Shown: positions 1-45,040 of the stretch, piece after piece
Numbering within the stretch: position 1 is the stretch's first letter
Layout of the letters: every line of letters begins with the position of its first letter
From: Anadara kagoshimensis
Taxonomy: Eukaryota > Mollusca > Bivalvia > Arcoida > Arcidae
NCBI GenBank assembly: GCA_021292105.1
Contig: CM037874.1
Span: forward strand, 57,266,539-57,330,538
Length of the DNA: 64,000 nt
Direction: 5' to 3'
The notes under the pieces: model-generated
Database searches by the model: none
What the model was told of the DNA's origin: nothing
Seen by the model: only the letters and a program-made list of their open reading frames with translations
Program-made: the position numbers and the translations under genes

Positions 1-130
1 TCAGGCTGTCTTTTTTAAAATATTTTTTTCTTTCTGTCTTTATTCTTATGAGCGTAACATGGTTATCTTTCAGTATAATAAACAATTTATTGCCTTTGTT
101 TGAGGGAGATATGAACATATCTCAAAGGCA
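1..130. repeat. dispersed repeat, second copy near 11158
   Basis: This stretch, including AATAAACAATTTATTGCCTT and the following GAGGGAGATATGAACAT, closely matches 11158-11290. It is AT-rich and non-coding, and lies in a DPH1 intron. Confidence 0.6.
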
Positions 131-285
131 ATAAATGTATAATGTAGATGATATAAATGTGATGGACAGACTGACAGATGGACAAAACATAAATAATTGG
201 CATTGTTTCTTGTGAGGTGAGAGAGAGGCCTGGATTTGTTTTAACTTGTAACAGGTCTCTATGAGGATCAAACCATATGACTTAC

Positions 286-354
286 TTGTAAGCTTCTAAA
301 TGTGGATTATGTATCATGATAGACTCTAAATGGAATCTTCCATCACCAAGGTAA
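286..354 (-). CDS. DPH1: DPH1 exon 8 (last exon in the window)
   Basis: Encodes [20 protein letters not shown] and AY, matching the [11 protein letters not shown] block. The acceptor is ATTACAG and the donor is GTAAGTC at 285-279. The following exon is not found between 1 and 285, so it lies beyond the left edge. Confidence 0.93.
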
Positions 355-3300
355 CTGTAATACAGAAAATATTCAATATAAAATGATAAAATAAAAACAA
401 ATGGCACCCTGCAACAAAAGCCATAGATTAAAAAAGTCACTTTTAGCTCCGCTCAATTACAGATCACCTGGGCCTCTAACTGCCTAATTCCAAGAGAAAC
501 ATCACTTGCAAAAGATTACTGTTAACCAACTTTTATTCACATGGGATTAATTTTTGCTTGTTTTGAGAAGACAAAATAATTGTGAAAGTATATTGTCACA
601 AACTTGTTTCAGAAAATGGTTTTATTTATACAAAATACATGTACTCAGCTTTGTACATACTGCAAAAGTTAAAATAGTCACCAAATGGTTTTCCTGATAG
701 AATCCCGAAAATTAATTTACTGTTGGTTTTACAATAATTTTTTTCTCTGAAATGAGTTGTTACTTACATTAAAGCAGAGACATCTGGTGGTAATTTTGGT
801 GATGTACAACCTAAGATTTCACCGGGTGATAACGGCTTGGCTTGTGGTAGTGTAACCTTGAAGTCTTTATTTAAATCTTTACTTGCAGCCTGTTAAAGTA
901 CAAATCACCCAAATAAAACAATGAATCCACAAATTATAAATCCTGTCTGGAATGAATGAATGGATGGATGGATGGATAGGTGGATGGATGGATGGATGAA
1001 CGAACGAACGAATGAATGAATGGTGTTTTACATCCCAGTCAAGAATATTTCACTTATATCGAGATGTCAGCGGGTATAGGTAAAGTGACAAAACTTTTAC
1101 TTTTGTAATGCACTAAGGCCAATATACAGGGAGGGTTTTTAAAAATGCCAAGCCTGCCATTACTGGTGCATGGTTTTTAAGGTCTCTTACTAAGAACCCT
1201 TGACTTTCATTTCTAAATGCCCATGCATTGCTTGGTGAAAGAACAGTCACTACCGATTTTCAAGTCTTGTTAGAACCCCGCCTAGAATTGAACCCACAAC
1301 CTTCCACATATGAAGTGATCCATCCATCCATCAATCATTATAATATAAATAATGGTCAGTAATCTTATTTTCACGGGGAACAAATATTTTGGCAGTCATA
1401 TTGAAATCCTGATAATGTCTGTATGTCAAAATTTTTTATGCTAAATAATTTTGTATTTATTATGATGGTCACTTGGTTGTAACTTTACGAACAGTTTTCA
1501 GTGACTGAGTTAAAGCTGTATCTTACATCATTGTGTATATATTAAGGGTTTTTATGTTTTGTTATCTTTTTATTCATGCCACTGATAAGCAGGACTCAAA
1601 GTTGTGACTAAAATAGGTGCCACCATGGCAACTAAAAATTTTGATTTTGCAACCATTTTTTGTACACCTTGCCAATTTGGCTACCAAAATTTCCACCATC
1701 AAAATCCAACTTTGACTGTTTTTTTTCAGTTAAAGCTTTTAGTATACAACAGTAAAACATGTTTATAACGAATCCCTCGGGACTCTATTTTGAACTTCGT
1801 TATAATGCCATTATGTTAAATTGTTATATCCTAATATGTAACTTTGTACTATCCATGTATTTGGTGTAGGCATTTTCATTATATTTGAGTTTTACTGTAC
1901 TCTGTTAGAGCATATCATCGGCAACTTATGTCAAAATAAATTTTTTTAGTTGCCATGTGCCTATTTTAGTTGCAACAAAGCCCTGCTCAATTTTTTCTTT
2001 AATTTTTAAGTTTACTAATAATATAAATGGAAGTCTTTGTTCTAAACTGACCTGTAGTGCTGGAACAAACTGGATGGTGCTGACAAGAGCGATGTGACTT
2101 CCTGCTTCAAAGTTAAATCTAATCGTCTCGAGGAAATGGACGATGTCGATCTTAATGTCGACAAAAACATACAACATATGTATACCTTCTGTTTTGTCTA
2201 TGGGAACTGCAAATACAAACAAAATGTAAGTGACTTAATTTCATAATGTCAAATTTTTATGTTTATTTTTTATTTCCTACCTTTCTTGCAGTGTGCATAA
2301 TATTTGTGGATTTATGAAAGTTCAAACTGACTATAATATCAAGTATAACAAAACAGACTATACAATGTATTATGCAAGGTGCTGTATCTAAACAATATTG
2401 ATGTTAACTATGTACAAATGTACTTTTAAGTATTATTATACACATGGTACAAAATTTCATCCATCGAAAATTTTCATCTGCGAAATAAGCGAAAATTAAT
2501 GGACCCCGAATGAAACTACACTTACAGACTAAGTGTAGTTTCATTCGCGGTCCATTAATTTTCGCTTATTTCAGTAATGATAAATTGAGAGCAATCTCAC
2601 ACAGCCTGGTAAAAAGGACTAATTCCCAATCCCAAAAGGTGCCTATTTTTCCAAATTTTGTAGGTACAAATTCACAATTGACGTTGCAAAATAATTCCCA
2701 AATAGTGCCAATTTAAAAATTGCAAAAAAGTGTCCATTTTTCCAAATTCTGTAGGTTAAAATTCCCAATTGAGGTCGCAGGTTTGACTGTAGTTACTGTA
2801 ATTAACACATAAAACAAATTCACTGATGTACATGTAACACCTCCCCACACACACACACACACACACACACACAACCACACATACACACACCAATTTAAAT
2901 CCTATTTTTAGCTATTCCAAAGCAGCGTCACAGCAACTAATGACGTACTAGTGTCAGTGACGTCATTAAATGGCACAATTCAGGCCAAGTTTTCATTCTT
3001 TTTGTGTGTTATTCAAGCATGCTGGGGTTTGTCGGAACATTGTGGGTGTGGCCGGCGATCCGTTAGTCATTGAAATTTCCTATCTTGAAGAAAATAAGAA
3101 TTCCCTGACTTTTTCCCTGGTGTGTGGGATCCATGACCTTCATGTTCCCCTGATCACACATACATGTTCTTTATACACAGATAAGACTAAGATGTGATCA
3201 AATCCTTACTCAGACAACTGTGTCCATAATGTATACATGTTCTTTATACACAGATTAGACTAAGATGTGATCAAATCCTTACTCAGACAACTGTGTCCAT

Positions 3301-3864
3301 AATGTGTACATGTTCTTTATACACAGATAAGACTAAGATGGGATCAAATCCTTACTCAGACAACTGTGTCCATAATGTGTACATGTTCTTTATACACAGA
3401 TAAGACTAAGATGTGATCAAATCCTTACTCAGACAACTGTGTCCATAATGTATACATGTTCTTTATACACAGATTAGACTAAGATGTGATCAAATCCTTA
3501 CTCAGACAACTGTGTCCATAATGTATACATGTTCTTTATACACAGATAAGACTAAGATGTGATCAAATCCTTACTCAGACAACTGTGTCCATAATGTATA
3601 CATGTTCTTTATACACAGATTAGACTAAGATGGGATCAAATCCTTACTCAGACAACTGTGTCCATAATGTGTACATGTTCTTTATACACAGATAAGACTA
3701 AGATGTTATCAAATCCTTACTCAGACAACTGTGTCCATAATGTACCATCAACTGAGCTCCTAGGGCTTTAGCTGTAAAATCGTCAACACAGCACGCACCA
3801 TATGTCACATCACCCATAATTATCGTATCAGCCTCTGTAAATCTAAATTAATTAATTAATTAAC

Positions 3865-3898
<34 letters not shown>

Positions 3899-6800
3899 AA
3901 TTAAAAAATTAATTAAGAACAAAATACATATATAAATAAATTCATTCATTCATTACTTTTAATAAATAATAATTTAGTTTTAATGAATATATGTATCATT
4001 TTTAATTAAAAAAAATTAATTGATTTTAAGAAGTAAATTAATAAATTAATGTATTAGTATGTAAGTTGTATTTTGTCGTCTATGTATTTTTTTAAACTTA
4101 TAAATCTGTATACAATGTATATAAATGTCAAAAAAAAAAAAACATAAATAAATAAAGGAGGAAAAAAAATTAATAAATATAACTAAATGGGGCCAGTAAT
4201 ATTGATTAATCACTAGGTTTGGCAATATTGTGATAACTTTGCTAAATTTTTAAATTATCCAGGAATTTAAGGTGTTATTTTGAAGATTACTTCTAACAGT
4301 TGTGATTAATTTTTTCGAAAAAAAAAGTTCTTACTTTCAAGAAGATTTTCAAAATTTGCTAAATTTAAGTAAAGAAAATCTTAGTTAAGAAATGATTGTT
4401 AAACTGGAGCCAGATCGGAGAATAATTTAGTTATTATAATTTAAATTCAAGATTAGCAGTTGTGTAATCACTGATCTTTGTACAGTAGTAAGTTGAGTTG
4501 AACTGAGTTAAGTAATTGTGTTTAACATCCCAGTCAAGAATATGTCACTTATATCGAGACATGGCCCGCTACAGGCGATTGTGCAGAAATTTTGTCTGTG
4601 CATTGTTCTTATGGCATTATACAGCAGGGTTTTATCATGCCAAACCTACCCTGGCATGGGACCTTGTTTATTTAAAGTCACCATCCAAAAGAAACATAAC
4701 TTTCATTTCGTAATGCGGAGTGCTTGGCAAAGAACAGTCACTACCCACATTCAAGTCTTGGGTCAGACCAGGTTGTGGTTTGGACCCATGACCTCCCACT
4801 TACGAAGCAACCAACTCTACCAACTGAGTTACCCCAGTGGTCCTTTGTACAGTAGCATTGTCATAAAGAAGTAATACACGTTACTCAACTTTCCCCATGT
4901 TTTTATTTCTTTAATAGAAACTCTTGGTTGAATCATTAGATCTACAAAGTACATTCCAATAATAAGACTTTTGCAAGAATTTAACTGACCAACAAAACAC
5001 TTAAAATCTCAAAAACACAGTGTCCACGACTTTGCCAGCTGATGATTAAAGTTCAATTGGGTTAAATTTATTTGTGAGATAAGCCAGGATGCTTCCCTAG
5101 CATGGTTTATATTTTGGTTTTTCGGTTCCAATTGATGTATGGCAGGCCATGCCTTTTATGTTCCAACACTGGCCCCCATCACGGTACCAAAGCAGCATAT
5201 GGTAACTAATGACATACTAGTGTCAGTGACGTCATTAAATGGCACAATTCGGGCAGTGTTTTCATTCTTTTTATTTTCAATTTAAGCATGTCGGTGGATT
5301 GTCGGAACCACCATGGGCCTGACCATCAATCCGTCAATTATGAATCCATGTTTCATATGTATATAGAATCTCTCTGGTTTCTGATTATAAATGCAGAGAG
5401 TGAGCGAGTGAGTAATGGTGTTTAACATACCAGTCAAGAATATTTCACTTATATCGAGACGTCGCAAGCTATAGGCGAAAGTGCAGAAATTTTGCCTGTG
5501 TGTTGTGCTGATGGCATTATACAGCAGGGTTCTTTAGCGTGCCAAGCCCACCGTGACACGGGACCTCGTTTACTTTAAGTTCCCATCCGAAAGAACCATG
5601 ACTTTCATTTCGTAATGCCGAGTGCTTGGCGAAAGAACAGTCATTACCCACTTTCAAGTCTTGGGTCAGACCCGGCCGGGGTTTGAACCCACAACCTCCC
5701 ACTTACGGAGCAAGCCCTCTACCAACTGAGCTACCGCAGTGGTATAAATGCAAAGAGGCTCCTGACTTCAGTGTAATGCATAATTCATCATTCTTTGAAC
5801 ATCAAAAGGATTAGCTCTGTACCATATGATACCCCCTAACGTGTGTGTACGAACTATTATTTCTATTAGCTATGGATTCACATCAGTTAACATCTTCCCT
5901 TGATACTTATGACATTTTTCCATGAATTCTGTTGTAAACTTTTCCCCACAAAATGGTGTTGACCATGTTGTTCAGCAGGAACCTCCATTATGTCATCATA
6001 AACTCTATTCAAAACATGACAGTTCATTGGACATTCAGTTGACAGTTACGTAAGAAGAAAATTAGCGGTAGGAAACTTTCGCATTTTTAAAAAAAAAATT
6101 TACACAAAAAAAAACTTCTAAACTTTTTTTGTGGAAAGAAATGTTCACAGTTCATTCAGACTGTCAGAAAAATGTACAAAGGTTAATAAGAAACTTTCCC
6201 TGAGAAGAAATATTCACAGTACAAAAACCACCATAAAAAATCACAATTTTTTTCCACACCGCTGTCCCTTCTTATACAATAATTGACTTACTCTTCTATT
6301 ATGTCTGCGATGGTACAAGCATATAGCAGGAGTCCCTCTGGGAACTGTAAGGCTGCTACAAAATAAAGTAAAACACACTTATTACATAGAGAATATTATA
6401 CAGTCAACCCTGTCTATAAAGGTCACCCAAGGGAAACAGTAAAAGTGACCTTTATAGACAGGTGGCCTTTATATACAGGTTCAAATAATATGAATAAAAA
6501 ACAATTGGGATATTATCCTGATGGCCTTTATAAGCAGGTGGCTATTATACAGAGATGGCCTTTATAAGCAGGTGGCCATTATACAGAGATGGCCTTTATA
6601 AGCAGGTGGCCATTATACAGATGGCCTTTATAAGCAGGTGGTGGCCATTATACAGAGATGGCCTTTATAAGCAGGTGGCCATTATACAGAGATGGCCTTT
6701 ATAAGCAGGTGGCCATTATACAGAGATGGCCTTTATAAGCAGGTGGCCATTATACAGAGATGGCCTTTATAAGCAGGTGGCCATTATACAGAGATGGCCT

Positions 6801-9800
6801 TTATAAGCAGGTGGCTATTATACAGAGATGGCCTTTATAAGCTGGTGGCCATTATACAGAGATGGCCTTTATAAGCAGGTGGCCATTATACAGAGATGGC
6901 CTTTATAAGCAGGTGGCCATTATACAGAGATGGCCTTTATAAGCAGGTGGCTATTATACAGAGATGGCCTTTATAAGCTGGTGGCCATTATACAGGGATG
7001 GCCTTTATAAGCAGGTGGCTATTATACAGAGATGGCCTTTATAAGCAGGTGGCCATTATACAGAGATGGCCTTTATAAGCAGGTGGCTATTATACAGAGA
7101 TGGCCTTTATAAGCTGGTGGCCATTATACAGAGATGGCCTTTATAAGCATGTGGCCATTATACAGAGATGGCCTTTATAAGCTGGTGGCCATTATACAGA
7201 GATGGCCTTTATAAGCAGGTGGCCATTATACAGAGATGGCCTTTATAAGCTGGTGGCCATTATACAGAGATGGCCTTTATAAGCAGGTGGCCATTATACA
7301 GAGATGGCCTTTATAAGCAGGTGGCCATTATACAGAGATGGCCTTTATAAGCAGGTGGACATTATACAGAGATGGCCTTTATAAGCAGGTGGCCATTATA
7401 CAGAGATGGCCTTTATAAGCTGGTGGCCATTATACAGAGATGGCCTTTATAAGCTGGTGGCCATTATACAGAGATGGCCTTTATAAGCTGGTGGCCATTA
7501 TACAGAGATGGCCTTTATAAGCTGGTGGCCATTATACAGACATGGCCTTTAAGGCAGATTGGACTGTACAGAGATGGCCTTTAAGGCAGGTTGGACTGTA
7601 CACAGAGATGGCCTTTAAGGCAGGTTGGACTGTACAGAGATGGCCTTTAAGGCAGGTTGGACTGTACAGAGATGGCCTTTAAGGCAGGTGGCCATTATAC
7701 AGAGATGGCCTTTATAAGCTGGTGGCCATTATACAGAGATGGCCTTTATAAGCAGGTGGCCATTATACAGAGATGGCCTTTATAAGCAGGTGGCCATTAT
7801 ACAGAGATGGCCTTTATAAGCAGGTGGCCATTATACAGAGATGGCCTTTATAAGCAGGTGGCTATTATACAGAGATGGCCTTTATAAGCTGGTGGCCATT
7901 ATACAGAGATGGCCTTTATAAGCAGGTGGCCATTATACAGAGATGGCCTTTATAAGCAGGTGGCCATTATACAGAGATGGCCTTTATAAGCAGGTGGCCA
8001 TTATACAGAGATGGCCTTTATAAGCTGGTGGCCATTATACAGAGATGGCCTTTATAAGCAGGTGGCCATTATACAGAGATGGCCTTTATAAGCTGGAGGC
8101 CATTATACAGAGATGGCCTTTATAAGCAGGTGGCCATTATACAGAGATGGCCTTTATAAGCAGGTGGCCATTATACAGAGATGGCCTTTATAAGCAGGTG
8201 GACATTATACAGAGATGGCCTTTATAAGCAGGTGGCCATTATACAGAGATGGCCTTTATAAGCTGGTGGCCATTATACAGAGATGGCCTTTATAAGCTGG
8301 TGGCCATTATACAGAGATGGCCTTTATAAGCTGGTGGCCATTATACAGAGATGGCCTTTATAAGCTGGTGGCCATTATACAGAGATGGCCTTTAAGGCAG
8401 ATTGGACTGTACAGAGATGGCCTTTAAGGCAGGTTGGACTGTACACAGAGATGGCCTTTAAGGCAGGTTGGACTGTACAGAGATGGCCTTTAAGGCAGGT
8501 TGGACTGTACAGAGATGGCCTTTAAGGCAGGTGGCCATTATACAGAGATGGCCTTTATAAGCAGGTGGCCATTATACAGAGATGGCCTTTAAGGCAGGTG
8601 GCCATTATACAGAGATGGCCTTTATAAGCAGGTGGCCATTATACAGAGATGGCCTTTAAGGCAGGTGGCCATTATACAGAGATGGCCTTTAAGGCAGGTT
8701 GGACTGTACAGAGATGGCCTTTATAAGCAGGTTGGACTGTACAGAGATGGCCTTTAAGGCAGGTTGGACTGTACAGAGATGGCCTTTAAGGCAGGTTGGA
8801 CTGTACAGAGATGGCCTTTAAGGCAGGTTGGACTGTACAGAGATGGCCTTTAAGGCAGGTTGGACTGTACAGAGATGGCCTTTAAGGCAGGTTGGACTGT
8901 ACAGAGATGGCCTTTAAGGCAGGTTGGACTGTACAGAGATGGCCTTTAAGGCAGGTGGCCATTATACAGAGATGGCCTTTATAAGCAGGTGGCCATTATA
9001 CAGAGATGGCCTTTAAGGCAGGTGGCCATTATACAGAGATGGCCTTTAAGGCAGGTTGGACTGTACAGAGATGGCCTTTATAAGCAGGTTGGACTGTACA
9101 GAGATGGCCTTTAAGGCAGGTTGGACTGTACAGAGATGGCCTTTAAGGCAGGTTGGACTGTACAGAGATGGCCTTTAAGGCAGGTTGGACTGTACAGAGA
9201 TGGCCTTTAAGGCAGGTTGGACTGTACAGAGATGGCCTTTATAAGCAGGTTGGACTGTACAGAGATGGCCTTTAAGGCAGGTTGGACTGTACAGAGATGG
9301 CCTTTAAGGCAGGTTGGACTGTACAGAGATGGCCTTTAAGGCAGGTTGGACTGTACAGAGATGGCCTTTAAGGCAGGTTGGACTGTACAGAGATGGCCTT
9401 TAAGGCAGGTTGGACTGTACAGAGATGGCCTTTAAGGCAGGTTGGACTGTACAGAGATGGCCTTTAAGGCAGGTGGCCATTATACAGAGATGGCCTTTAT
9501 AAGCAGGTGGCCATTATACAGAGATGGCCTTTAAGGCAGGTGGCCATTATACAGAGATGGCCTTTAAGGCAGGTTAGACTGTACAGAGATGGCCTTTATA
9601 AGCAGGTTGGACTGTACAGAGATGGCCTTTAAGGCAGGTTGGACTGTACAGAGATGGTCTTTAAGGCAGGTTGGACTGTACAGAGATGGCCTTTAAGGCA
9701 GGTTGGACTGTACAGAGATGGCCTTTAAGGCAGGTTGGACTGTACAGAGATGGCCTTTAAGGCAGGTTGGACTGTACAGAGATGGCCTTTAAGGCAGGTT

Positions 9801-12800
9801 GGACTGTACAGAGATGGCCTTTAAGGCAGGTTGGACTGTACAGAGATGGCCTTTAAGGCAGGTTGGACTGTACAGAGATGGCCTTTAAGGCAGGTTGGAC
9901 TGTACAGAGATGGCCTTTAAGGCAGGTTGGACTGTACAGAGATGGCCTTTAAGGCAGGTTGGACTGTACAGAGATGGCCTTTAAGGCAGGTTGGACTGTA
10001 CAGAGATGGCCTTTAAGGCAGGTTGGACTGTACAGAGATGGCCTTTAAGGCAGGTTGGACTGTACAGAGATGGCCTTTAAGGCAGGTTGGACTGTACAGA
10101 GATGGCCTTTAAGGCAGGTTGGACTGTACAGAGATGGCCTTTAAGGCAGGTTGGACTGTACAGAGATGGCCTTTAAGGCAGGTTGGACTGTACAGAGATG
10201 GCCTTTAAGGCAGGTTGGACTGTACAGAGATGGCCTTTAAGGCAGGTTGGACTGTACAGAGATGGCCTTTAAGGCAGGTTGGACTGTACAGAGATGACCT
10301 TTAAGGCAGGTTGGACTGTACAGAGATGGCCTTTAAGGCAGGTTGGACTGTACAGAGATGGCCTTTAAGGCAGGTTGGACTGTACAGAGATGGCCTTTAA
10401 GGCAGGTTGGACTGTACAGAGATGGCCTTTAAGGCAGGTTGGACTGTACATGAGATGGCCTTTAAGGCAGGTTGGACTGTACATGAGATGGCCTTTAAGG
10501 CAGGTTGGACTGTACAGAGATGGCCTTTAAGGCAGGTTGGACTGTACAGAGATGGCCTTTAAGGCAGGTTGGACTGTACAGAGATGGCCTTTAAGGCAGG
10601 TTGGACTGTACAGAGATGGCCTTTAAGGCAGGTTGGACTGTACAGAGATGGCCTTTAAGGCAGGTTGGACTGTACAGAGATGGCCTTTAAGGCAGGTTGG
10701 ACTGTACAGAGATGGCCTTTAAGGCAGGTTGGACTGTACAGAGATGGCCTTTAAGGCAGGTTGGACTGTACAGAGATGGCCTTTAAGGCAGGTTGGACTG
10801 TACAGAGATGACCTTTAAGGCAGGTTGGACTGTACAGAGATGGCCTTTAAGGCAGGTTGGACTGTACAGAGATGGCCTTTAAGGCAGGTTGGACTGTACA
10901 CGAGTGTTTAAATATTACTATACCTCAGTCATAAATACTAAAAGTTGATTAAATAAGTGCAGTCACATGGTCAGCCTGACAGGATAAAAATAGCATATTT
11001 TCCCTCACATGATCGAGTTTCAGTATAATACTAGTTTCTCTTATTTGGAACATACCATAAGGGCACAATTATATGACATCATCAATGGAGAGTTGGTAAC
11101 AATGTTCTTGTGTTTGCCTCTGATGATAGGAGAAAAATCAACAAATCAGAAAAAGAATGCTGTTTTTTAACCTTCCAGGTTGTCTTATTTTTAATATTTT
11201 TCTTTTCTTACTGTCAGCTTATTATCTTTCGGAATAATAAACAATTTATTGCTTTTGTTCGAGGGAAATATGAACATTTGTACAAAATGAACATTGTACC
11301 ATGTTGAATTAATAAAATCCGTTGAGTAATTTTTTATGCAAAGAGCCTTGACAAGTTGCCTAAATAAATTATTCAACAAGTTTAATAAATTCCATATTAC
11401 ATAACTATGAATGTAAGATTCTATATATTATATAATCCAGGAAAAATGTTTTTATATGAAAAATAAATACAACCTGTTTTCTCTTTAAGGACCTGATTGA
11501 CTGCACTACACAGAAGTCACATAAAATGTACAAGCAACATAAAAACTACTAAATTTTTCGAGGTACAATAAAGTTTTTTATTATAACCATAAAAACTTTT
11601 CCATATAACAAATAGAAAAAAACATTTTCTTCACCTTATACGAGTGGTATTTTTTTTATGTTTGCAGTGCACTCAGGGAAATGTGCATGTCGTAAGACAG
11701 GGCATCAGTTTTTAAGGTTTCTAAATTTACAGTCAAGAATATTTCACTTACATCGAGACGTTGCCAACTATAGGCAAAGGTGCAGAAATTTTGTCTGTGT
11801 GTTGTGCTGATGGCATTATACAGCAGGGTTCTTTATTGTGCCTAGCCTATCATGACACGGAGGATCTCGTTTATTTTAAGTTCCCATCTAAAAGAACCGT
11901 GACTTTCATTTTGTAATGCCTTGGCGAAAGAACAGTTACTACCAACTTTCAAGTCTTGAAGTCCTCAAGAAGAAGCATAGCTGTTCAAAAATCCTGCCAA
12001 TACTTTAAACATACCACTGTTTATCATTTAATTACCTCTTTTGACACCTAGTGTTCTGATTTTCCATATTGTTTTAGGAATTTCAAAATTGTAATTCTCT
12101 GGAAGCTAGAACAAAAAATATAAAATTTAAATTCATAAATTATAAATTTATATGTATCATAAAACAACATAGTTTGTGATGGGCTATAATGTTGTTTAAC
12201 GTCACATTAGTAATTTTTCAGGTATTCCCGATGAGAGCCAGTTTATTCATCTCTAAGGTTACTCTGAGAACTGATATGTGTATGTGCAAGATGAGACAGT
12301 GTGTTTTATGGTCTTCCTTGTACTTTCACACTCTCAGTGTGACTTTAAGCTGTTAGCTGACAGAATCAGTATGCCACAGACAAGCATATCACTCCCCCAG
12401 TCAAACTATCCTGACACCAGGTGAACCAATTGATACCCTGTCCTCTTAATACTGAAAGCCAGTCATGGAAGCAGTATCCAAAAATTTTAAAGTATTATAT
12501 GTATATATGACCTGGCTAAGGTCTGAACCCACAACCCACTTCTTAGTAGACGGATGCTCTGCCACTGAGCCACCGAGGCAGTAAAGCAGTATGGTAATGA
12601 AAAATGTAATACAGAGACAAAAACTGTATAGAGAACCTGGTTAGTCGATAGTCAGTATCATAAGTATGGCAAAAACATAATTCTCGTAATCACACATCCG
12701 AGCACCTGAATTACCTGACTCTTGGAGACACTTGACAACGGGGGAAACAGCAGCCATTATGAATAAAGTTTGAGTAAAGAACTGAAGTGGACATGTTTTC

Positions 12801-15800
12801 AGATTAATTTAGTTTGACAGTCCATTTAACTGTCAGTGTCACAGCAACAGTCTAAGTTAATCAATTTCAACCTTATTTTCCTTTACTTCCAAGTATTTTC
12901 AATCACACGACTTTTTAAGGAATTTTAATTTTGTCAATGTTTGAGAAGTTGGGTGCATTTCAGTAAATGATACTAAATCTCTTATAATCTGTGGATATTT
13001 ATTTATTTGATAAAACCATATATCACAAGAAATTTGCATTTGAAAAAAATCTCATAATTTTCAATTTATCTATGAAAATGTTTCATTATTTATATATGAA
13101 TATATAACCCGGTAAGTCAATAGTCAGTATAAGTATGACAAAAACATATTAGGTATAAACAAATAGTCAGTATAAGTATGACAAAAACATATTAGGTATA
13201 AACAAATAGTCAGTATAAGTATGACAAAAACATATTAGGTATAAACAAATAGTCAGTATAAGTATGACAAAAACATATTAGGTATAAACAAATAGTCAGT
13301 ATAAGTATGACAAAAACATATTAGGTATAAACAAATAGTCAGTATAAGTATGACAAAAACATATTAGGTATAAACAAATAGTCAGTATAAGTATGACAAA
13401 AATATATTAGGTATAAACAAATAGTCAGTATAAGTATGACAAAAACATATTAGGTATAAACAAATAGTCAGTATAAGTATGACAAAAACATATTAGGTAT
13501 AAACAAATAGTCAGTATAAGTATGACAAAAACATATTAGGTATAAACAAATAGTCAGTATAAGTATGACAAAAACATATTAGGTATAAACAAATAGTCAG
13601 TATAAGTATGACAAAAACATATTAGGTATAAACAAATAGTCAGTATAAGTATGACAAAAACATATTAGGTATAAACAAATAGTCAGTATAAGTATGACAA
13701 AAACATATTAGGTATAAACAAATAGTCAGTATAAGTATGACAAAAATATATTAGGTATAAACAAATAGTCAGTATAAGTATGACAAAAACATATTAGGTA
13801 TAAACAAATAGTCAGTATAAGTATGACAAAAACATATTAGGTATAAACAAATAGTCAGTATAAGTATGACAAAAACATATTAGGTATAAACAACACACAC
13901 ATACATGCATTAACTAAAAACCTGCCAAAATTCTCATCTAGCTTCGAGATACCTGTCTAGCTTTGTGATACCAATCTAGTTTTCCAGATACCCATGTAGC
14001 CTTGAGATACCCTTCTGGCTTCCAGATACCAATCTAGCTTGGAGATAATACCATCCTAGCATTATTTAGGTCAACAGTAAATATATTAACCTGTAACTAA
14101 CACTTTTCTACCACTTAACCATTTTTAATTATCAAAACTTTATATATATATATACCTGTTTTACAGCTTGAAGAAGTTTCGGATCATTCAATATTTCATC
14201 TGGAATTTGATGTACAGCTCTTTTTCCACCTAAAAATAAAATGTAGCAGTTTGGATATTTCAGTTGGTTCAGTGAAGGATTAATTGATTGAATAATTGAT
14301 CTGTTGACTTTATCTGTTGATTGATTGATTTATGATCTGTTGATTGATTGATTGAGTGAATAATTGATCTGTGGATTGATCTATTGATTGATTGAATGGC
14401 AGTTTACATCCCAGTTAAGAATATCAACAAAGGTCCCAGTTTCAATCATATTCTGACCCTACCTTTAAAGGCTTTATCCTGATCAACAATCAGAGGCAGC
14501 TGACCTATGGGTTGTAAAAAAGGGGTTTAACCTGGTGCTATTTCAATTTAAATAGCGGAATTGAACAAAAATGAAAGACAGAAATACAGCAGTTTTGGTA
14601 CCTATAGCTAGGAATATCACTTGCTTGCAGGAAGGCTGATTTCACAGAGTTAACAAGGGAAAGGATAATTCATTTCCAAGTTATTTTACAAAATCAGATC
14701 TAATATCGAGTTTTAAATTCCAATAATATAATTAATTTTGATTTCTGAAAATTTTCAGTCATAATCAGAGTTCAACCACAATTAAAAGATCATTTTGTAT
14801 TATGTGAGTTACAGTCAGACATCATGGATACCACCATGTAACTAGACACAGGAACTTGTAATTAATGTTTAAACTATACTATCCAGCACTAAGAAAAATA
14901 ACACTTGTAATTAATGTTTAAAACTATACTATCCAGACTTTCTATACTATCCAGCACTAAGAAAAATAAGTTATTTTTCTTAGTGCTGGATAGTATAGAA
15001 AGTCTGGATAGTATAGTTTTAAACATTAATTACAAGTTCCTGTGACTAGACAGAAATCTAATAGATCTAACGTACATCGACATAATGTCGTCACCGACCT
15101 TAAGTCGTCAGCACGAAATATTGCAAAATTATTTTTATTTATCGCTCTTAAGAAAGTTGAACAGTGGAAAATTTAAAAGCGGTAAATGTTTTCCATACTT
15201 AAATAACATACTTTATATTATGTAACAGGTTTCTTCATAGTAAAATTGGTATCTTTGACATCACTATCAAAAAGGTACATGTGTCATATCGGGCGACAGA
15301 CTACAGAGAATGACAGTCATTTGGGCGATCGGGTCACAAACATACTTGTCAAGGGTACACAACCCAAACGTCACAATAACCCCTTTTAAATATGTTCCTA
15401 CTATATAAAGAGTTGTCTATCTTTGGCCAGAACATCAGTTAAAAGGTAAAAATATCGTTTTAAAACGACTGACGACTTTCAGGCGTACTGACGACTTAAA
15501 GACTGCATTAAAACCTGCGAATTACCGGTATTCAGTTTTATTTTTAGAACATCTTTTCAGTCATATAAGTGATTTAAGCGTTTTGGCAATATCTGTTTGG
15601 TGAAATTTCAAATTGATATGTGGTTTTTTTAATCTCACTTTCTGACCTTGTTTGGTAAATTCAACTTTTATAGCGAATCAAACAGTTTATATACACATAT
15701 AACATGTCAGGAATGAATCAAACAATACAATTTTGTTCTTTAGATATTTATAATATCAAACACTACTAGCCAAACTAGATTCAATTAAACAAAAACTAAA

Positions 15801-21060: not shown

Positions 21061-24000
21061 TTCCAGATCGATCACCGTTTTAGTGGGGACATCACCAAAG
21101 AAGTGGGGGTAAAACTCGCGTCCCCACACCCATGGTAGAGGTTACTTGATATGCTCTACAATTGCAACGCCTTTTTAAATAAAGTTTTTTGTTATGTTGG
21201 GACATTTGAAAAACTTTTCCAGTCACATTGCAAGTGTCTGGACCACTGTACATCCCTTTTATCTCACAATTGTCCTCACTATTTATCTCACATTGTCCTC
21301 ACTATTTATCTCACATTGTCCTCACTATTTATCTCACATTGTCCTCACTATTTATCTCACATAAACCTCACTATTTATCTCACATAAACCTCACTATTTA
21401 TCTCACATTGTTCTCACTTTTTGTCTCGCATGGTCCTCGCTATTTCTCTCACAATTGTCCTCACTATTTATCTCACATTGTCCTCACTATTTATCTCACA
21501 TTGTTCTCACTTTTTATCTCACATTGTCCTCAGTATTTATCTCACATTGTTCTCACTATTTATCTCACATTGTTCTCACTTTTTGTTTCACATTGTCGTC
21601 ACTATTTATCTCACATAATCCTCACTATTTATCTCACATTTTTCTCACTATTTAATTCACATTGTCGTCACTATTTATCTCACATTGTCCTCACTATTTA
21701 TCTCACATTGTCCTCACTATTTATCTCACATTGTTCTCACTTTTTATCTCACAATTGTCCTCACTATTTATCTCACATTGTCCTCACTATTAATCTCACA
21801 TTGTCCTCCCAATTTATCTCACATTGTCCTCACTATTTATCTCACATAAACCTCACTATTTATCTCACATTGTTCTCACTTTTTGTCTCGCATGGTCCTC
21901 GCTATTTCTCTCACAATTGTCCTCACTATTTATCTCACATTGTCCTCACTATTTATCTCACATTGTTCTCACTTTTTATCTCACATTGTCCTCAGTATTT
22001 ATCTCACATTGTTCTCACTATTTATCTCACATTGTTCTCACTTTTTGTTTCATATTGTCGTCACTATTTATCTCACATTGTCCTCACTATTTATCCAATA
22101 TTGTCCTCACTATTTATCTCACATTGTCCTCACTATTTATCTCACATTGTCCTCACTATTTATCTCACATAAACCTCACTATTTATCTCACATTGTTCTC
22201 ACTTTTTGTCTCGCATGGTCCTCGCTATTTCTCTCACAATTGTCCTCACTATTTATCTCACATTGTCCTCACTATTTATCTCACATTGTTCTCACTTTTT
22301 ATCTCACATTGTCCTCAGTATTTATCTCACATTGTTCTCACTATTTATCTCACATTGTTCTCACTTTTTGTTTCACATTGTCGTCACTATTTATCTCACA
22401 TAATCCTCACTATTTATCTCACATTTTTCTCACTATTTAATTCACATTGTCGTCACTATTTATCTCACATTGTCCTCACTATTTATCTCACATTGTCCTC
22501 ACTATTTATCTCACATTGTTCTCACTTTTTATCTCACAATTGTCCTCACTATTTATCTCACATTGTCCTCACTATTAATCTCACATTGTCCTCCCAATTT
22601 ATCTCACATTGTCCTCACTATTTATCTCACATAAACCTCACTATTTATCTCACATTGTTCTCACTTTTTGTCTTGCATGGTCCTCGCTATTTCTCTCACA
22701 ATTGTCCTCACTATTTATCTCACATTGTCCTCACTATCTATCTCACATTGTTCTCACTTTTTATCTCACATTGTCCTCAGTATTTATCTCACATTGTTCT
22801 CACTATTTATCTCACATTGTTCTCACTTTTTGTTTCATATTGTCGTCACTATTTATCTCACATTGTCCTCACTATTTATCCAATATTGTCCTCACTATTT
22901 ATCTCACATTGTCCTCACTATTTATCTCACATTGTTCTCACTATTTATCTCACATTGTCATCAATATTTATTTCACATTGTCCACACTATTTATATCACA
23001 TTGTCCTCACTATTTATCTCACATTGTTCTCACTTTTGTCTCACATTGTTCTCACTTTTGTCTCACATTGTTCTCACTATTTATCTCACATTGTCTTCAC
23101 TATTTATCTCACGGTTCTCAATATTTATCTCACATTATTCCACTTTTTATCTCAAATTGTCCTCAGTATTTATCTCACATTGTTCTCACTTTTTATCTCA
23201 CATTGTCCTCACTATTTATCTTACATTGTCCTCAATATTTATCTCACAGTGTCCACACTATTTATCTCACATTGCCCTCACAGAGAATGCTATTTGCGTT
23301 CTATGGAAAGAGTTGTATCATATTATTTTTTTTGTTATTTTTTTTAACAGTGAAAATGTCAAAAATTTGTCGGTCGACCAGGTGGCTAATAAACTATGGA
23401 GAGATATGAAACGTGGAGAACATGGTACATTGGATGCTACAGATTTAGACAAAGAGTTTGTGAAAATATTCGATATGGACGGTAAATAATTATTGTAATA
23501 TTATAACAGTCCTTATTGAAGGCTTGACAAATCTGTGATTCAGCGAATGATGAAAATACAGGGGCCAGTTTCATAATAAATTTAAAAAATACCCATAAGT
23601 ATATAAAAAAGAGTAAAGGGGAACAACAAATCAGATCTTTGACTTGTAGGTGCTCCGACAAAATTCTACATTACTTTTTTAATTTGTGTCCGATCATCGT
23701 GATCTTGGTGTCATTTTGTTACCAGATAAGTATTCTTTAAATTGACATTAAATTTTTGGACATAACTTAAAATTTTAATAAAATGTTCACACGGAAAACA
23801 CAGAAAAATGTTGTAATTTTGCCCGATGTAGCTAAGCCCGTCCATGTAAAAGTAGCTTAAAATTCGCATTATGATCATGTTTTTCACTATCAGCGTCCTT
23901 GTCAACTACAAATGCTGATGTGGATCGAAGAACTAAATAAAAAGCAATAAACTCAAAGGTAACCGGTTGCTTACTTCTAAATCTACAAGCTATACTATCC

Positions 24001-24388
24001 TAATTCGTTCCAACACGGACCCACTTTGATACAGTGATATGGCCAGAAGAAAAATGTACATATTTTTGCTGGCTTTTGATGCTTTTTATGTTTACAATTT
24101 ATAAATTCAGGAAGACATTTGCAGAATGGCAAATGACAGATTAAATTCATTTTAAAAAATTATAAAAAAAATATGTGTATGTGCAAGCACGGGATCATTG
24201 GCTTATATGCATGCTACGCACTGGTCGAGACCTTGGGAACCTTTTTTTCAAAATGCGTAAAGACTGTACACGAAATGTTGTCCTCGTATTAAGTAGATGT
24301 AGGTCGTCCTTAGAAAACCTAAACGCATCCTGAACTCTCTTCTGATTTCTTTTTAATAAGCTTGTTGTAGTTGGAAAAATTAGCCCAT

Positions 24389-24436
<48 letters not shown>

Positions 24437-26098
24437 GGACAGCAATAAATCAATCAGGACATCAATCAATCAAACCACTGCGGTAGCTCAGTTGGTAGAG
24501 TGCTCGCTCCGTAAGTGGAAGGTCGTGGGTTCGATCCCCGACCGGGTCTGACCCAAGACTTGAAAGTGGGTAGTGACTGTTCTTTCGCCAAGCACTCGGC
24601 ATTACGAAATGAAAGTCACGGTTCCGTAAAATAAACGAGGTCCCGTGTCACGGTGGGCTTGGCACGCTAAAGAACCCTGCTGTATAATGCCATCAGCGCG
24701 ACGCACAGGCAAAATTTCTGCATCTTCGCCTATAGCTGGCGACGTCTCGATATAAGTGAAATATTCTTGACTGGGACGTTAAACACCATTACTCAACTCA
24801 ACTTAACTCAATCAATCAATCAATCATGACATCAATCAATCAAGACATCAATCAAGACATAAAGACATCAATCAAGACATCGATCAATCAAGATATCAAT
24901 CAATCAATCAATCAACCAAGATCGACCAGCAACCATATTCACTGACTTACCGACTGACTATAGATTAATAAAGAGGTGCGTTCGGTTTCAGGAGATGGTG
25001 AGGTTAAAAAGTTTGAATTTGTGGAGAAATGGTTCCAGAATTACTTCGACTCAAAAGATGTAGCCGAAAATATGTTTGATCGGTTTGACATTGCCAGAGA
25101 TGGAAAATTAACAAAATTAGATTATGACGCCCATTTTAAGGCTGCTGATAGAGACAGTGAGTATCTCCATAGTGATAAAAATAAAAAAAATTATGTGCAT
25201 CATCAATACCATATAAAAAATTAAAATTATTATGTTCATTTTAATCCTGCTAACAAAGTATTTCGACAGTGATAAGTAATGTGTATAGACTGTTGCCAAA
25301 AAAAATATTGGCATCATCAATGTCATGTAACAAATTATGATTATACAGTTAAACCGATTTACCATATTATGATGGACATTGCACCAAAAATAATCACCAC
25401 TCATATGTACAGGTTTTAGAATTTCCTTCATCGTGGGTGACCTCTCGATAAGTGAAGCGATCTTGACTGGGATATAAAAACTAAAAATTACAAAATCAAT
25501 TACTTGTATATATAAACACAGAATATAAAACACATTATTAAGCTCATTTTGTTGTAATTTATTTTTTTTTAAATTTTAGCTAACAAAGTTTTAAGTTCGT
25601 CAGAGTTTACCAGATTTATAGTGATGGTAAGTGTTTATATCAGAATTAAAGTCGTAAGAAAAATAAATAAATAAATAAATAAATAAAATAAAAATTGAAA
25701 TAAAAAAGAAAAAGAAACATTAAAACATTTAATAATAAGATTTAAAAATGAAAGATGACTTTCCCCGAGGTTATCGAATGGCGATCCCTGAGAGTATTGG
25801 TACTAGTATATATATCGCGATCCATGAGAGTATTGACATATCACGATCCCTGAGAGCATCGATTTATCGCGATCCCGGTATATCGCAAAACTGAGAGCAT
25901 CGATATATTGCGATTCCTGGGGGGTACCGAAAATCACGATCCCCGAGGTATCGATATATTAGCATTATGAACGCGAATTTGACAATCCAAAATTTTCTTA
26001 TTGTATGAATTAATTATAAAAAGCATTTGTTTTTAAAAAAATGTATTTGTTTCATTTGTTAGATGCATCCGGACACCAGGCGACATGACGAATTATGA
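20089..26098 (+). CDS. secreted-pathway EF-hand protein with C-terminal HDEL
   Basis: Five coding exons (20089-20141, 23351-23481, 24992-25156, 25580-25626, 26063-26098) join in frame to 143 residues. Residues 1-18 form a hydrophobic signal peptide (MMINLVTITFITITVVLC). Calcium-binding loops: D59-E70 (DMDGDGEVKKFE) and D114-E125 (DRDTNKVLSSSE) are canonical. D94-D105 lacks the usual acidic residue at position 3 and has Asp at 12, and K38-D49 is a vestigial loop, giving four EF-hands in two pairs. The protein ends in RRHDEL, an ER-retrieval signal of the KDEL/HDEL class, so the likely site is the ER lumen as a calcium buffer or sensor. It is far shorter than the six-EF-hand CREC proteins (about 300 residues), and I do not recognise an orthologue. 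A secreted molluscan EF-hand family is an alternative. The exon-1 donor (GTTTGT) is weaker than the others. Confidence 0.85.
20142..20481. other. intron stretch, EF-hand gene intron 1, start
   Basis: AT-rich; no gene or clear repeat apart from short motifs (CACTATAAACCCCATTTC type) also found near 18215. Confidence 0.4.
20485..20819 (-). repeat. tRNA-derived SINE, near full length
   Basis: On the minus strand it has a GAGGTAGCTCAATTGGTAGA A box, a diverged B box GTCATGGGTTCGATC, and the tail to CTTGACTGGGACGTTAAGCA. Confidence 0.85.
21021..21058 (+). repeat. (GA)n microsatellite
   Basis: Uninterrupted GA repeat. Confidence 0.95.
21256..23285. repeat. 24-bp satellite array with 785-bp higher-order repeat
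   Basis: About 84 units of the type TATTTATCTCACATTGTCCTCAC (about 24 bp). Variant units recur at a fixed distance: the CGCATGGTCCTCGC variant at 21422 and 22207, and at 21884 and 22669 (785 bp apart). Because 24 is divisible by three, all three plus-strand frames stay open for long stretches (up to 507 codons with a SLFISHCPHYLSHIVLT repeat). I read these as artefacts: the array sits wholly within an intron of the EF-hand gene. Confidence 0.97.
23351..23481 (+). CDS. EF-hand gene, exon 2
   Basis: Preceded by a long T tract and AACAG. It encodes the vestigial first EF-hand and the start of the second (KIFDMDG), then the donor GTAAAT. It begins only about 65 bp after the end of the 24-bp satellite. 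Confidence 0.88.
23559..23713 (+). repeat. short dispersed element, inverted copy at 50640-50792
   Basis: Begins CAGGGGCCAGTTTCATAATA and matches the reverse complement of 50640-50792 over about 150 bp. The same terminal motif forms the inverted repeat at 50933-51013. Confidence 0.7.
23714..24367. other. intron stretch without recognisable features
   Basis: Between EF-hand exons 2 and 3; no gene or clear repeat is seen before the ATCA microsatellite. Confidence 0.45.
24390..24474 (+). repeat. (ATCA)n microsatellite, left of the SINE
   Basis: Tandem ATCA with a CAATCAGGACA variant; a matching ATCA array continues right of the SINE (24810-24920), so the SINE appears to be inserted in it or to have seeded it. 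Confidence 0.9.
24475..24800 (+). repeat. tRNA-derived SINE, full-length reference copy
   Basis: Head CCACTGCGGTAGCTCAGTTG has the A box TAGCTCAGTTGG and the B box GTGGGTTCGATCCC. These are followed by a conserved body (CAAGACTTGAAAGTGGGTAG; GAAATGAAAGTCACGG) and the tail AGTGAAATATTCTTGACTGG plus an ACTCAACTCAA end. It is the best preserved member here and the reference for the other copies. I cannot name the family. Confidence 0.92.
24810..24925 (+). repeat. (ATCA)n microsatellite, right of the SINE
   Basis: ATCAATCAATC runs with AAGACATCAATC variants. Confidence 0.9.
24992..25156 (+). CDS. EF-hand gene, exon 3
   Basis: Acceptor TTTCAG and donor GTGAGT. It continues the canonical loop (DGEVKKFEFVEKW), then the degenerate loop around FDIARDGKLTKLD and the helix leading into the fourth EF-hand. 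Confidence 0.9.
25157..25579. other. EF-hand gene intron 3
   Basis: AT-rich. 25425-25470 is a fragment of the main SINE tail (CTCTCGATAAGTGAAG, CTTGACTGGGA). Nothing else was recognised. Confidence 0.55.
25580..25626 (+). CDS. EF-hand gene, exon 4
   Basis: Acceptor TTTTAG and donor GTAAGT. It encodes NKVLSSSEFTRFIVM, completing the fourth EF-hand. Confidence 0.88.
25765..25960. repeat. degenerate short tandem repeat with GATATATCGCGATCC motif
   Basis: CGATCCCTGAGAG and TATCGCGATCCC motifs recur at irregular 30-40 bp spacing in EF-hand intron 4. An (AAAT)n tract lies at 25664-25690. Confidence 0.6.
26063..26098 (+). CDS. EF-hand gene, exon 5 with HDEL terminus
   Basis: Acceptor TTGTTAG, then 11 codons MHPDTRRHDEL and TGA. 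The frame is fixed by exon 4, which ends on a complete codon. Confidence 0.85.
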   Translation: MHPDTRRHDEL

Positions 26099-28049: not shown

Positions 28050-31000
28050 ATAGCTTTCCCGGCTTTGCGTGGGCACTGGAGTAAATATCTAGTGGTGTGG
28101 TTGTAGTACTTCCAGGCTTTGGGCGGTCACTGGAGTAAATATCTAGTGATGTAGTTGTAGTACTTCCCGGCTTTGGGCGGTCACTGGAGTAAATATCTAG
28201 TGGTGTGGTTGTAGAACTTCCAGGCTTTGCGTGGGCACTGGAGTAAATATCTAGTGGTGTGGTTGTAGTACTTCCCGGCTTTGAGTGGTCACTGGAGTAA
28301 ATATCTAGTGGTGTGGTTGTAGTACTTCAAGGCTTTGGGTGGTCACTGGAGTAAATATCTAGTGGTGTGGTTGTAGTACTTCCCGGTTTTGAGTGGTCAC
28401 TGAAGTAATTATCTAGTGATGTAGTTGTTGTGCTTCCCGGCTTTGAGTGGTCACTGGAGTAAATATCTAGTGGTGTGGTTGTAGAACTTCCAGGCTTTGC
28501 GTGGGCACTGGAGTAAATATCTAGTGGTGTGGTTGTAGTACTTCCCGGCTTTGGGTGGTCACTGGAGTAAATATCTAGTGGTGGTTGTAGTACTTCCCGG
28601 TTTTGAGTGGTCACTGAAGTAATTATCTAGTGATGTAGTTGTTGTGCTTCCCGGCTTTGAGTTGTCACTGGAGTAAATATCTAGTGATGTGGTTGTAGTA
28701 CTTCCAGGCTTTGGGTGGTCACTGGAGTAAATATCTAGTGGTGTGGTTGTAGTACTTCCCGGCTTTGGGTGGTCACTGGAGTAAATATCTAGTGGTGTGG
28801 TTGAAGTACTTCCCGGTTTTGAGTGGACACTGGAGTAAATATCTAGTGATGTGGTTGTAGTACTTCCCGGCTTTGAGTGGTCACTGGAGTAAATATCTAG
28901 TGGTGTGGTTGTAGTACTTCCAGGCTTTGGGCGGGCACTGGAGTAAATATCTAGTGGTGTGGTTGTAGAACTTCCAGGCTTTTGGCGGACACTGGAGTAA
29001 ATATCTAGTGGTGTGGTTGTAGTACTTCCCGGCTTTGGGTGGTCACTGGAGTAAATATCTAGTGATAAGGTTGTAGTACTTCCCGGATTTGAGTGGTCAC
29101 TGGAGTAAATATCTAGTGGTGTGGTTGTAGTACTTCCAGGCTTTGGGTGGTCACTGGAGTAAATATCTAGTGGTGTGGTTGTAGTACTTCCAGGCTTTGG
29201 GTGGTCACTGAAGTAAATATCTAGTGGTGTGGTTGTAGTACTTCCCGGCTTTGGGTGGTCACTGGAGTAAATATCTAGTGGTGTGGTTGTAGTACTTCCC
29301 GGCTTTGGGTGGTCACTGGAGTAAATATCTAGTGGTGTGGTTGTAGTACTTCCAGGCTTTTGGCGGTCACTGGAGTAAATATCTAATGGTGTGGTTGTAG
29401 TACTTCCAGGCTTTGGGCAGTCACTGGAGTAAATATCTAGTGGTGTGGTTGTAGTACTTCCAGGTTTTGGGTGTTCACTGGAGTAAATATCTAGTGGTGT
29501 GGTTATAGAACTTCCAGGCTTTGGGCGGTCACTGGAGTAAATATCCAGTGGTGTGGTTGTAGTACTTCCCGGCTTTGGGTGGTCACTGGAGTAAATATCT
29601 AGTGATAAGGTTGTAGTACTTCCAGGCTTTGGGTGGTCACTGGAGTAAATATCTAGTGGTGTGGTTGTAGTACTTCCCGGCTTTCGGTGGTCACTGAAGT
29701 AAATATCTAGTGGTGTGGTTGTAGTACTTCCCGGCTATGGGTGGTCACTGGAGTAAATATCTAGTGGTGTGGTTGTAGTACTTCCCAGCTTTGGGTGGTC
29801 ACTGGAGTAAATATCTAGTGGTGTGGTTGTAGTGCTTCCAGGCTTTTGGCGGTCACTGGAGTAAATATCTAGTGGTGTGGTTGTAGTATTTCCAGGCTTT
29901 GGGTGGTCACTGGAATAAATATCTAGTGGTGTGGTTGTAGTACTTCCCGGCTTTGGGCGGTCACTGGAGTAAATATCTAGTGGTGTGGTTGTAGTACTTC
30001 CCGGCTTTGGGTGGTCACTGGAGTAAATATCTAGTGGTGTGGTTGTAGTACTTCCCGGCTTTGGGTGGTCACTGGAGTAAATATCTAGTGATAAGGTTGT
30101 AGTACTTCCAGGCTTTGGGTGGTCACTGGAGTAAATATCTAGTGGTGTGGTTGTAGTACTTCCCGGCTTTGGGTGGTCACTGGAGTAAATATCTAGTGGT
30201 GTGGTTGTAGTATTTCCCGGCTTTGGGCGGTCACTGGAGTAAATATCTAGTGGTGTGGTTGTAGTACTTCCAGGCTTTGGGTGGTCACTGAAGTAAATAT
30301 CTAGTGGTGTGGTTGTAGTACTTCCAGGCTTTTGGCGGTCACTGAAGTAAATATCTAGTGGTGTGGTTGTAGTACTTCCCGGCTTTTGGTGATCACTGGA
30401 GTAAATATCTAGTGATGTAGTTGTAGTACTTCCCGGCTTTGGGTGGTCACTGGAGTAAATATCTAGTGGTGTGGTTGTAGTACTTCCAGGCTTTTGGCGG
30501 TCACTGAAGTAAATATCTAGTGGTGTGGTTGTAGTACTTCCCGGCTTTTAGAGATCACTGAAGTAAATATCTAGTGGTGTAGTTATAGTACTTCCAGGCT
30601 TTTGGCGGACACTGGAGTAAATATCTAGTGATGTGGTTATGGTACTTCCAGGCTTTGGGTGGTCACTGGAGTAAATATCTAGTGATGTGGTTGTAGTACT
30701 TCCCGGCTTTGAGTGGTCACTGGAGTAAATATCTAGTGGTGTGGTTGTAGTACTTCCCGGCTTTGGGTGGTCACTGGAGTAAATATCTAGTGGTGTGGTT
30801 GTAGAACTTCCCGGCTTTGGGTGGTCACTGAAGTAAATATCTAGTGGTGTGGTTGTAGTACTTCCCGGCTTTGGACGGTCACTGGAGTAAATAACTAGTG
30901 GTGTGGTTGTAGTACTTCCCGGTTTGGGCGGTGACTGGAGTAAATATCTAGTGGTGTGGTTGTAGTACTTCCCGGCTTTGGGCGGTCACTGGAGTAAATA

Positions 31001-43000: not shown

Positions 43001-44303
43001 TGGTGTGGTTGTAGTGCTTCCCGGCTTTGGGTGGTCATTGGAGTAAATATCTAGTGGTGTGGTTGTAGTACTTCCAGGCTTTGGGCGGTCACTGGAGTAA
43101 ATATCTAGTGGTGTGGTTGTAGTACTTCCAGGCTTTGGGTGGTCATTGGAGTAAATATCTAGTGGTGTGGTTGTAGTACTTCCAGGCTTTGGGTGGTCAT
43201 TGGAGTAAATATCTAGTGGTGTGGTTGTAGTACTTCCAGGCTTTGGGTGGTCATTGGAGTAAATATCTAGTGGTTGGTTGTAGTACTTCCAGGCTTGGTG
43301 GTCATTGGAGTAAATATCTAGTGGTGTGGTTATAGTACTTCCCGGCTTTGGGCGGTCACTGGAGTAAATATCTAGTGGTCTGGTTGTAGTACTTCCAGGC
43401 TTTCTGTGGTCACTGGAGTAAATATCTAGTGGTGTGATTGTAGTACTTCCAGGCTTTGGGTGTCACTGGAGTAAATATCTAGTGATGTGGTTGTAGAACT
43501 TCCAGGGTTTGGGCGGGCACTGGAGTAAATATCTAGTGGTGTGGTTGTAGTACTTCCAAGCTGTTGGTGGTCACTGGAGTAAATATCTAGTGGTGTGGTT
43601 GTAGAACTTCCAGACTTTGGGTGGGCACTGGAGTAAATATCTAGTGATGTGGTTGTAGTACTTCCCTTTTGGCGGTCACTGGAGTAAATATCTAGTGGTG
43701 TGGTTGTAGTACTTCCAGGCTTTTGGCGGTCACTGGAGTAAATATCTAGTGATGTGGTTGTAGTACTTCCAGGCTTTAGGTGGGCACTGGAGTAAATATC
43801 TAGTGATGTGGTTGTAGTACTTCCAGACTTTGGGCGGGCACTGGAGTAAATATCTAGTGATGTGGTTGTAGTACTTCCAGGCTTTGGGCGGGCACTGGAG
43901 TAAATATCTAGTGATGTGGTTGTAGTACTTCCAGACTTTGGGCGGGCACTGGAGTAAATATCTAGTGATGTGGTTGTAGTACTTCCAGGCTTTGGGTGGG
44001 CACTGGAGTAAATATCTAGTGATGTGGTTGTAGTACTTCCAGGCTTTGGTGGGCACTGGAGTAAATATCTAGTGATGTGGTTGTAGTACTTCCAGGCTTT
44101 GGCGGGCACTGGAGTAAATATCTAGTGATGTGGTTGTAGTGCTTCCTGATTTTGGACGGGCACTGGAGTAAATATCTAGTGGTGTGTTGTAGTACTTCCA
44201 GGCTTTGGGTGGTTACTAGAGTAAATATCTAGTGGTGTGGTTATAGTACTTCCCAGCTTTGGGCGGGCACTGGAGTAAATATGTAATGGTGTGGTTATAG
44301 TAC
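28050..44303. repeat. 16.3-kb satellite array, 54-bp unit, about 300 copies
   Basis: The unit contains ACTGGAGTAAATATCTAGTG, GTGTGGTTGTAGTACTTCC and AGGCTTTGGGTGGTC. A few positions vary repeatedly (CCAGG/CCCGG, GTGG/GCGG, GGTG/GATG). Higher-order structure is clear: the rare variant GGCTTTCTGTGGTCA recurs near 38133, 40279, 42377 and 43398, with spacings of about 2146, 2098 and 1021 bp. A 54-bp unit is 18 codons, so long minus-strand frames arise (up to 552 codons, with KPGSTTTTPLDIYSSD-type repeats). Frames are repeatedly broken, no start or splice context was found, and I treat the array as non-coding satellite. Confidence 0.97.
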
Positions 44304-44735: not shown

Positions 44736-44736
44736 C

Positions 44737-44737
<1 letters not shown>

Positions 44738-44792
<55 letters not shown>
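44738..44792 (+). repeat. (AAAT)n microsatellite
   Basis: Nearly uninterrupted AAAT repeat abutting the flanking dispersed repeat. Confidence 0.95.
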
Positions 44793-44793
44793 A

Positions 44794-44972: not shown

Positions 44973-45040
44973 ATATCCCCCCCCCCCCGCGCTCAAATTT
45001 TGCGGGGTATATTAATAAATAATTGAAATAGAAAAATCTT

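Follow-up and report, generated by a model that had tools for sequence, protein, structure and literature searches.

A minisatellite across an exon boundary of DPH1 presents eight and, in a second copy of the locus, fourteen identical splice donors in the Anadara kagoshimensis assembly

The window analysed here comprises 64,000 nucleotides of the bivalve Anadara kagoshimensis (assembly GCA_021292105.1, contig CM037874.1, positions 57,266,539 to 57,330,538 of the forward strand) and contains on its minus strand a gene that in our reading is DPH1, a gene of diphthamide synthesis. A 73-bp minisatellite lies across the boundary between one of its exons, here called exon D, and the following intron, and each of its eight units repeats the exon end together with the donor GTAAGG. 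That a minisatellite has multiplied a real 5′ splice site of DPH1 had been proposed in an earlier note made from the letters alone, and reading frame, conserved protein and a match to the Pfam family PF01866 now agree with this proposal. A second copy of the region carries the same array with 14 units. We consider it quite probable that the array is a neutral variable number tandem repeat (VNTR) over the splice boundary, which is tolerated because the first donor wins.

Tandem Repeats Finder reported an array at 3160-3744 with a period of 73, 8.0 copies, 97% matches, no indels and a score of 1107. The head-to-tail arrangement and a unit length within the range of about 10-100 bp are those of a minisatellite, and the array is not a product of chance. 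Each unit consists of the final 24 exon D bases, of which the edge base varies, followed by GTAAGG and 43 more intron bases, as the earlier note had described with its 73-bp unit of coding exon end plus donor. The nine-mer around the donor, TGAGTAAGG (TGA/GTAAGG), is the same in 8/8 units, so that the term near-identical used in the note understates the likeness. The eight donors span 511 nt, in agreement with the roughly 520 nt given there, and the whole array of the window has four variable columns.

3160-3744, minus strand: 73-bp minisatellite of eight units, unit 1 (3672-3744) being exon-proximal and unit 8 located at 3161-3233 (Tandem Repeats Finder and unit alignment)
3715-3720, minus strand: authentic donor GTAAGG of unit 1, the sole one of the eight with an open frame (unit alignment, frame)
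3642-3647, minus strand: copied donor of unit 2, its use leading to a stop (unit alignment)
3569-3574, minus strand: copied donor of unit 3, likewise leading to a stop (unit alignment)
3496-3501, minus strand: copied donor of unit 4, likewise leading to a stop (unit alignment)
3423-3428, minus strand: copied donor of unit 5, likewise leading to a stop (unit alignment)
3350-3355, minus strand: copied donor of unit 6, likewise leading to a stop (unit alignment)
3277-3282, minus strand: copied donor of unit 7, likewise leading to a stop (unit alignment)
3204-3209, minus strand: copied donor of unit 8, likewise leading to a stop (unit alignment)

The six main arrays of the window with a period of at least 20 cover 24,423 of its 64,000 bases (38%, CA-rich arrays left out), and an array on a splice boundary is therefore no great surprise. 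A dispersed satellite was considered and rejected, as a DNA search of the own genome (1.115 Gb in 36 contigs) matched, as far as seen, only the window locus and its second copy, these counts being lower bounds.

Joining exons A to G gave 224 residues without a stop, which matched PF01866 (Diphthamide_syn) with 212.7 bits compared to a cut-off of 33.2. A 153-residue part reached 158.5 bits with the Dph1/Dph2 domain model TIGR00322 (cut-off 35), and this part alone, scored with the DPH2 equivalog TIGR00272, obtained 52 bits, under the cut-off of 184. The exons were matched one by one to what we take to be the human DPH1 sequence, the only sequence in this comparison; these matches and the low TIGR00272 score of the 153-residue part are the reasons for reading the gene as DPH1 rather than DPH2. 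A 3′ splice site stands directly ahead of exon A, so at least one earlier exon exists and D is at least the fifth. The designation exon 5 in the earlier note thus holds as a minimum count, the coding exons placed upstream of D being A, B and C; the exon or exons ahead of A were not found. Three more DPH1 exon matches lie outside the window, past its left edge.

14156-14229, minus strand: exon A, the first placed although not the first of the gene (exon match, 3′ splice site before it)
12036-12105, minus strand: exon B (exon match)
6292-6355, minus strand: exon C (exon match)
3721-3842, minus strand: exon D (122 nt), fifth or later in the gene, with its final 24 nt forming the exonic part of unit 1 (exon match, frame, PF01866)
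2207-3720, minus strand: intron between D and E, 1514 nt counted from the first donor (exon model)
2052-2206, minus strand: exon E, starting at 2206 (exon match)
768-889, minus strand: exon F (exon match)
286-354, minus strand: exon G (exon match)

The exon model uses the boundary at 3720, where exon D is joined to exon E in frame within an isoleucine codon (GHSCL/IPIDKTEG). Use of donors 2 to 8 would extend exon D to between 195 and 633 nt, with 73 nt added per unit, and in 7/7 cases the frame ends at one shared early stop following SKDLITS, which bears out the prediction that reading past the first donor soon reaches a stop. The boundary is credited as a splice site because of frame and conserved protein and not because of its donor score; on the minus strand, about six GT sites per kb equal or exceed the array donor in a matrix of human frequencies, and score alone would therefore not choose 3720. 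An intact DPH1 protein requires the first donor, which is therefore probably the one mostly used, judging from the frame and from the human F7 gene discussed below; that exon definition must pick the exon-proximal copy, as the earlier note put it, is inferred from the frame.

The same genome search revealed a second occurrence of the array at C18:56963444-56964482, on the scaffold of the window, about 308 kb away and in the same orientation. This second array has 14 units with 14/14 donors reading GTAAGG, whereas the earlier note had named a single donor copy in long reads or in a related genome as the observation that would speak against it. Here, too, the frame is open at the first donor only, and 13/13 later donors would stop after SKDLITS with exon D lengths of 195 to 1071 nt; in both copies, every unit thus carries a donor, with the authentic exon end at the first. 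The sequence just past the last unit is common to both arrays, which suggests that they probably descend from one founding duplication. A coding comparison of the copies revealed 8 differences in 676 bases, affecting 8 codons, seven of them synonymous and one exchanging I and L. Two of the eight are located in exon D itself, at its positions 19-20, and exon E differs at positions 77, 80 and 116. With this pattern both gene copies look functional.

Aligned blocks of at least 500 bp outside the three largest arrays were mostly 91.9-97.3% identical between the copies, two lower values being 88.5% in a 23-bp array and 77.9% in a distant 132/145-bp repeat. All four probe loci had blocks collinear at an offset of about 306-322 kb, none of the four matched over its full 10 kb, and two of them (L007 and L030) also matched repeat arrays elsewhere. 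The second copy ends at C18:56998954, in the middle of a 54-bp array and right before 1,000 N; the matching end position inside the 54-bp array of the window is ambiguous. The first base past this gap aligns in the other contig at C18:56690371, within a 10-kb gap-free stretch, giving an overlap of about 308.6 kb. Because the second copy ends at the gap and the contig of the window begins inside the homologous stretch, the two copies are very probably alleles, that is, contig ends of different haplotypes left unmerged.

A true tandem segmental duplication, with two DPH1 genes instead of two alleles, would be compatible with the same orientation of the copies, about 308 kb apart on one scaffold. 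We regard it as improbable, as the duplicate ends exactly at the gap, where the other contig starts within the homologous stretch, and as the 230 kb compared contain no match to window 44311-64000 that reaches 300 bp and 88%. Less probable still is an origin of the array, or of the differing unit numbers, in an assembly artefact. The region is doubled beside a gap, as unmerged haplotypes are, but the array occurs on two contigs with different base variants, only two unit types being shared among six and eight, and array lengths of 585 and about 1,020 bp would fit within the span of long reads. The array is hence very probably not a one-off assembly error, and its unit number varies, probably between alleles. 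Unit numbers also differ between the copies in the 32/34-bp array at window 6520-10900 (132 versus 31), in the 43-bp array at 13119-13893 (18 versus 8) and in the 23-bp array at 21258-23281 (88 versus 29), so a change from 8 to 14 is ordinary for the arrays of this genome.

Across the 22 units of both arrays, 10 of 73 columns vary, 3/24 in the exon-derived and 7/49 in the intron-derived part, and the donor nine-mer contains no variable column. Selection keeping the donors intact was considered and is unsupported, as the variable columns are spread as expected and, by simple arithmetic, nine unchanged donor columns would occur with a chance of about 0.27 given 10 variable columns in 73. The same arithmetic gives a probability near 0.03 for the lack of variable columns between -9 and +13, a stretch picked after the data had been seen. 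The two arrays comprise six and eight unit types, respectively; that so few are shared points to turnover within each array. An AG (...ATCTTAG) stands before the exon-like part of every window unit and is kept in 17/22 units of both copies (column +22). It raised the idea of units acting as cassettes for small cryptic exons; judged by eye, this site is without a good pyrimidine tract.

For the origin and tolerance of the array we favour the following explanation. The minisatellite would have been founded when 73 bp spanning the boundary of exon D and its intron were duplicated in tandem, and ordinary VNTR expansion would have led to the 8-unit and the 14-unit array, the two sequences most likely being haplotypes of a single animal. 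Transcripts would thus carry 8 or 14 identical donors, among which the spliceosome most likely uses almost only the exon-proximal one, ending the 122-nt exon in frame, while the remaining units would be excised along with the intron. Occasional use of a later donor would give an mRNA with an early stop, which is presumably destroyed. The even spread of variable columns is as expected without selection on the copies and counts for neutrality. The use of only the most upstream donor in human F7 (PMC6627357) counts for first-donor use in DPH1.

Several observations weigh against such a clear preference for the first donor or against the history just outlined. Of the eight donors scored in the gene, that of the array is the weakest, with -5.0 kcal/mol for pairing with the U1 5′ end compared to -5.6 to -8.3 for the seven others, and a matrix score of 4.24 compared to 6.38-9.37. 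The matrix was built from human frequencies, and a ninth donor (locus L007, near 4154) was left out of the eight scored. From the start of exon D to the acceptor, 5/133 GT sites score at least 5 bits with this matrix, including one at 3798 within exon D. Being the weakest of eight and outscored by five GT sites, the donor may be used less efficiently, or less exclusively, than assumed; its weakness had not been remarked on in the earlier note. Furthermore, human IFI6 uses two downstream repeat donors (PMC4526556), an intron-proximal donor can be favoured in competition, for example by SRSF1 (PMC5585400), and a true segmental duplication is a possible source of the second copy.

Masking of the later donors by RNA structure was considered as well and rejected, as the folding of individual units was no better than that of shuffled sequences (z of 0.64, 0.03 and 0.03 for three units, of which two have the same sequence, and -1.10 for a fourth stretch). 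Accessibilities of the eight window donors were 0.011-0.093, within the 5-95% range of 0.002-0.311 obtained for 258 GU sites of window 1-4000 (those of the array among them), and among these eight donors secondary structure did not set the first copy apart from the later ones.

Two further explanations assign the extra donors an effect. Later donors might be used appreciably and yield stop-containing RNA, in which case the array would burden DPH1 mildly or restrain it through unproductive splicing. Identical donors compete, the array donor is weak, all later choices in both copies (7/7 and 13/13) lead to the same early stop, and IFI6 provides the precedent just cited. However, the enlarged exons would, by general knowledge, be less favourable for exon definition, and F7 employs its first donor only (PMC6627357); we therefore judge appreciable use of later donors to be unlikely. 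Somewhat less likely still is that the extra donors are functional, with several U1 particles binding the array and helping to define an exon with a weak donor, so that unit number tunes DPH1 mRNA. This would fit the weakness of the donor, the 22/22 intact donors of both copies and a correlation of F7 repeat number with mRNA level (reported in PMC3492156), but intact nine-mers arise often enough by chance for selection to be unneeded, and exon- and intron-derived columns vary alike. Its more specific form, a dosage dial in which copies of a weak donor recruit U1 to a poorly defined exon and the 8- and 14-unit alleles differ in DPH1 mRNA, appears slightly more doubtful again.

The 14-unit copy is new, was not foreseen in the earlier note and makes donor choice testable. 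How the spliceosome chooses among identical donors is unsettled, use of only the most upstream site in F7 standing against intron-proximal activation by SRSF1. Eight and 14 identical donors with nearly the same 24-nt exonic lead, probably in one heterozygous animal, represent a natural test of this choice. The coding differences tag each copy, so that ordinary RNA sequencing could measure both donor choice and the effect of unit number.

Further features were observed in the two copies of the region. The scaffold seems to hold about 308 kb twice, namely window 1 to within the 54-bp array and C18:56690371-56998954, and gene counts from the assembly near this doubled stretch may be inflated. The 54-bp array is a giant minisatellite with about 302 copies (16 kb) at window 28056-44303, and about 232 copies are left in the second copy. 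The latter also contains about 2.1 kb of extra sequence (C18:56964615-56966761), starting about 50 bp upstream of exon D, and a block of 145-bp tandem units starts there 304 bp ahead of this exon; further arrays with 145-bp units occur along the scaffold. Elsewhere in the window, plus-strand open stretches at 23318-25224 resemble parts of an EF-hand protein, one having a weak Pfam match under the cut-off (EF-hand_8, 17.9 bits) and the other piece none. Stretches 62072-62473 and 63325-63732 are near-identical, about 1.26 kb apart, and contain CA-rich repeats and the same flanking open frame.

Multiplied donors of this kind had been called unusual, which may be right, but they are not new, as human F7 intron 7 and IFI6 precede them; a literature search far from exhaustive found no donor-multiplying minisatellites outside these two genes. 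In the potato RdRp gene, an intron was reportedly gained by tandem duplication (PMC4974935). There, too, tandem duplication is the source of a splice-site change; the DPH1 array shows no added intron and places its copies inside an existing one. The minisatellite of human IFI6 (6-16) is said, in the title of a 1995 paper by Turri et al. (cited in PMC4526556 and PMC2572611), to supply multiple splice donors, and in this it resembles the DPH1 array. Two downstream repeat units of IFI6 act as donors and give three mRNAs and different isoforms (PMC4526556), whereas all downstream donors of the DPH1 array would lead to a stop. Tandem donors, likewise rivals at one exon end, are pairs of alternative 5′ splice sites with extensions of three to six nucleotides (PMC2423196) and involve neither a unit array nor a minisatellite. 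A further close case is F7 intron 7 with its 37-bp repeats, an array with donors at an exon end and of variable unit number (PMC3492156), in which splicing normally takes place at the most upstream 5′ splice site alone, a behaviour described as 'oriented scanning', and mutation of the first donor activates downstream intronic cryptic donors (PMC6627357). The F7 unit is 37 bp with four to seven repeats cited, compared to 73 bp with 8 or 14 units in DPH1, an unrelated gene of an unrelated animal. The DPH1 case is thus a true and tidy instance of an arrangement for which two human genes provide earlier descriptions.
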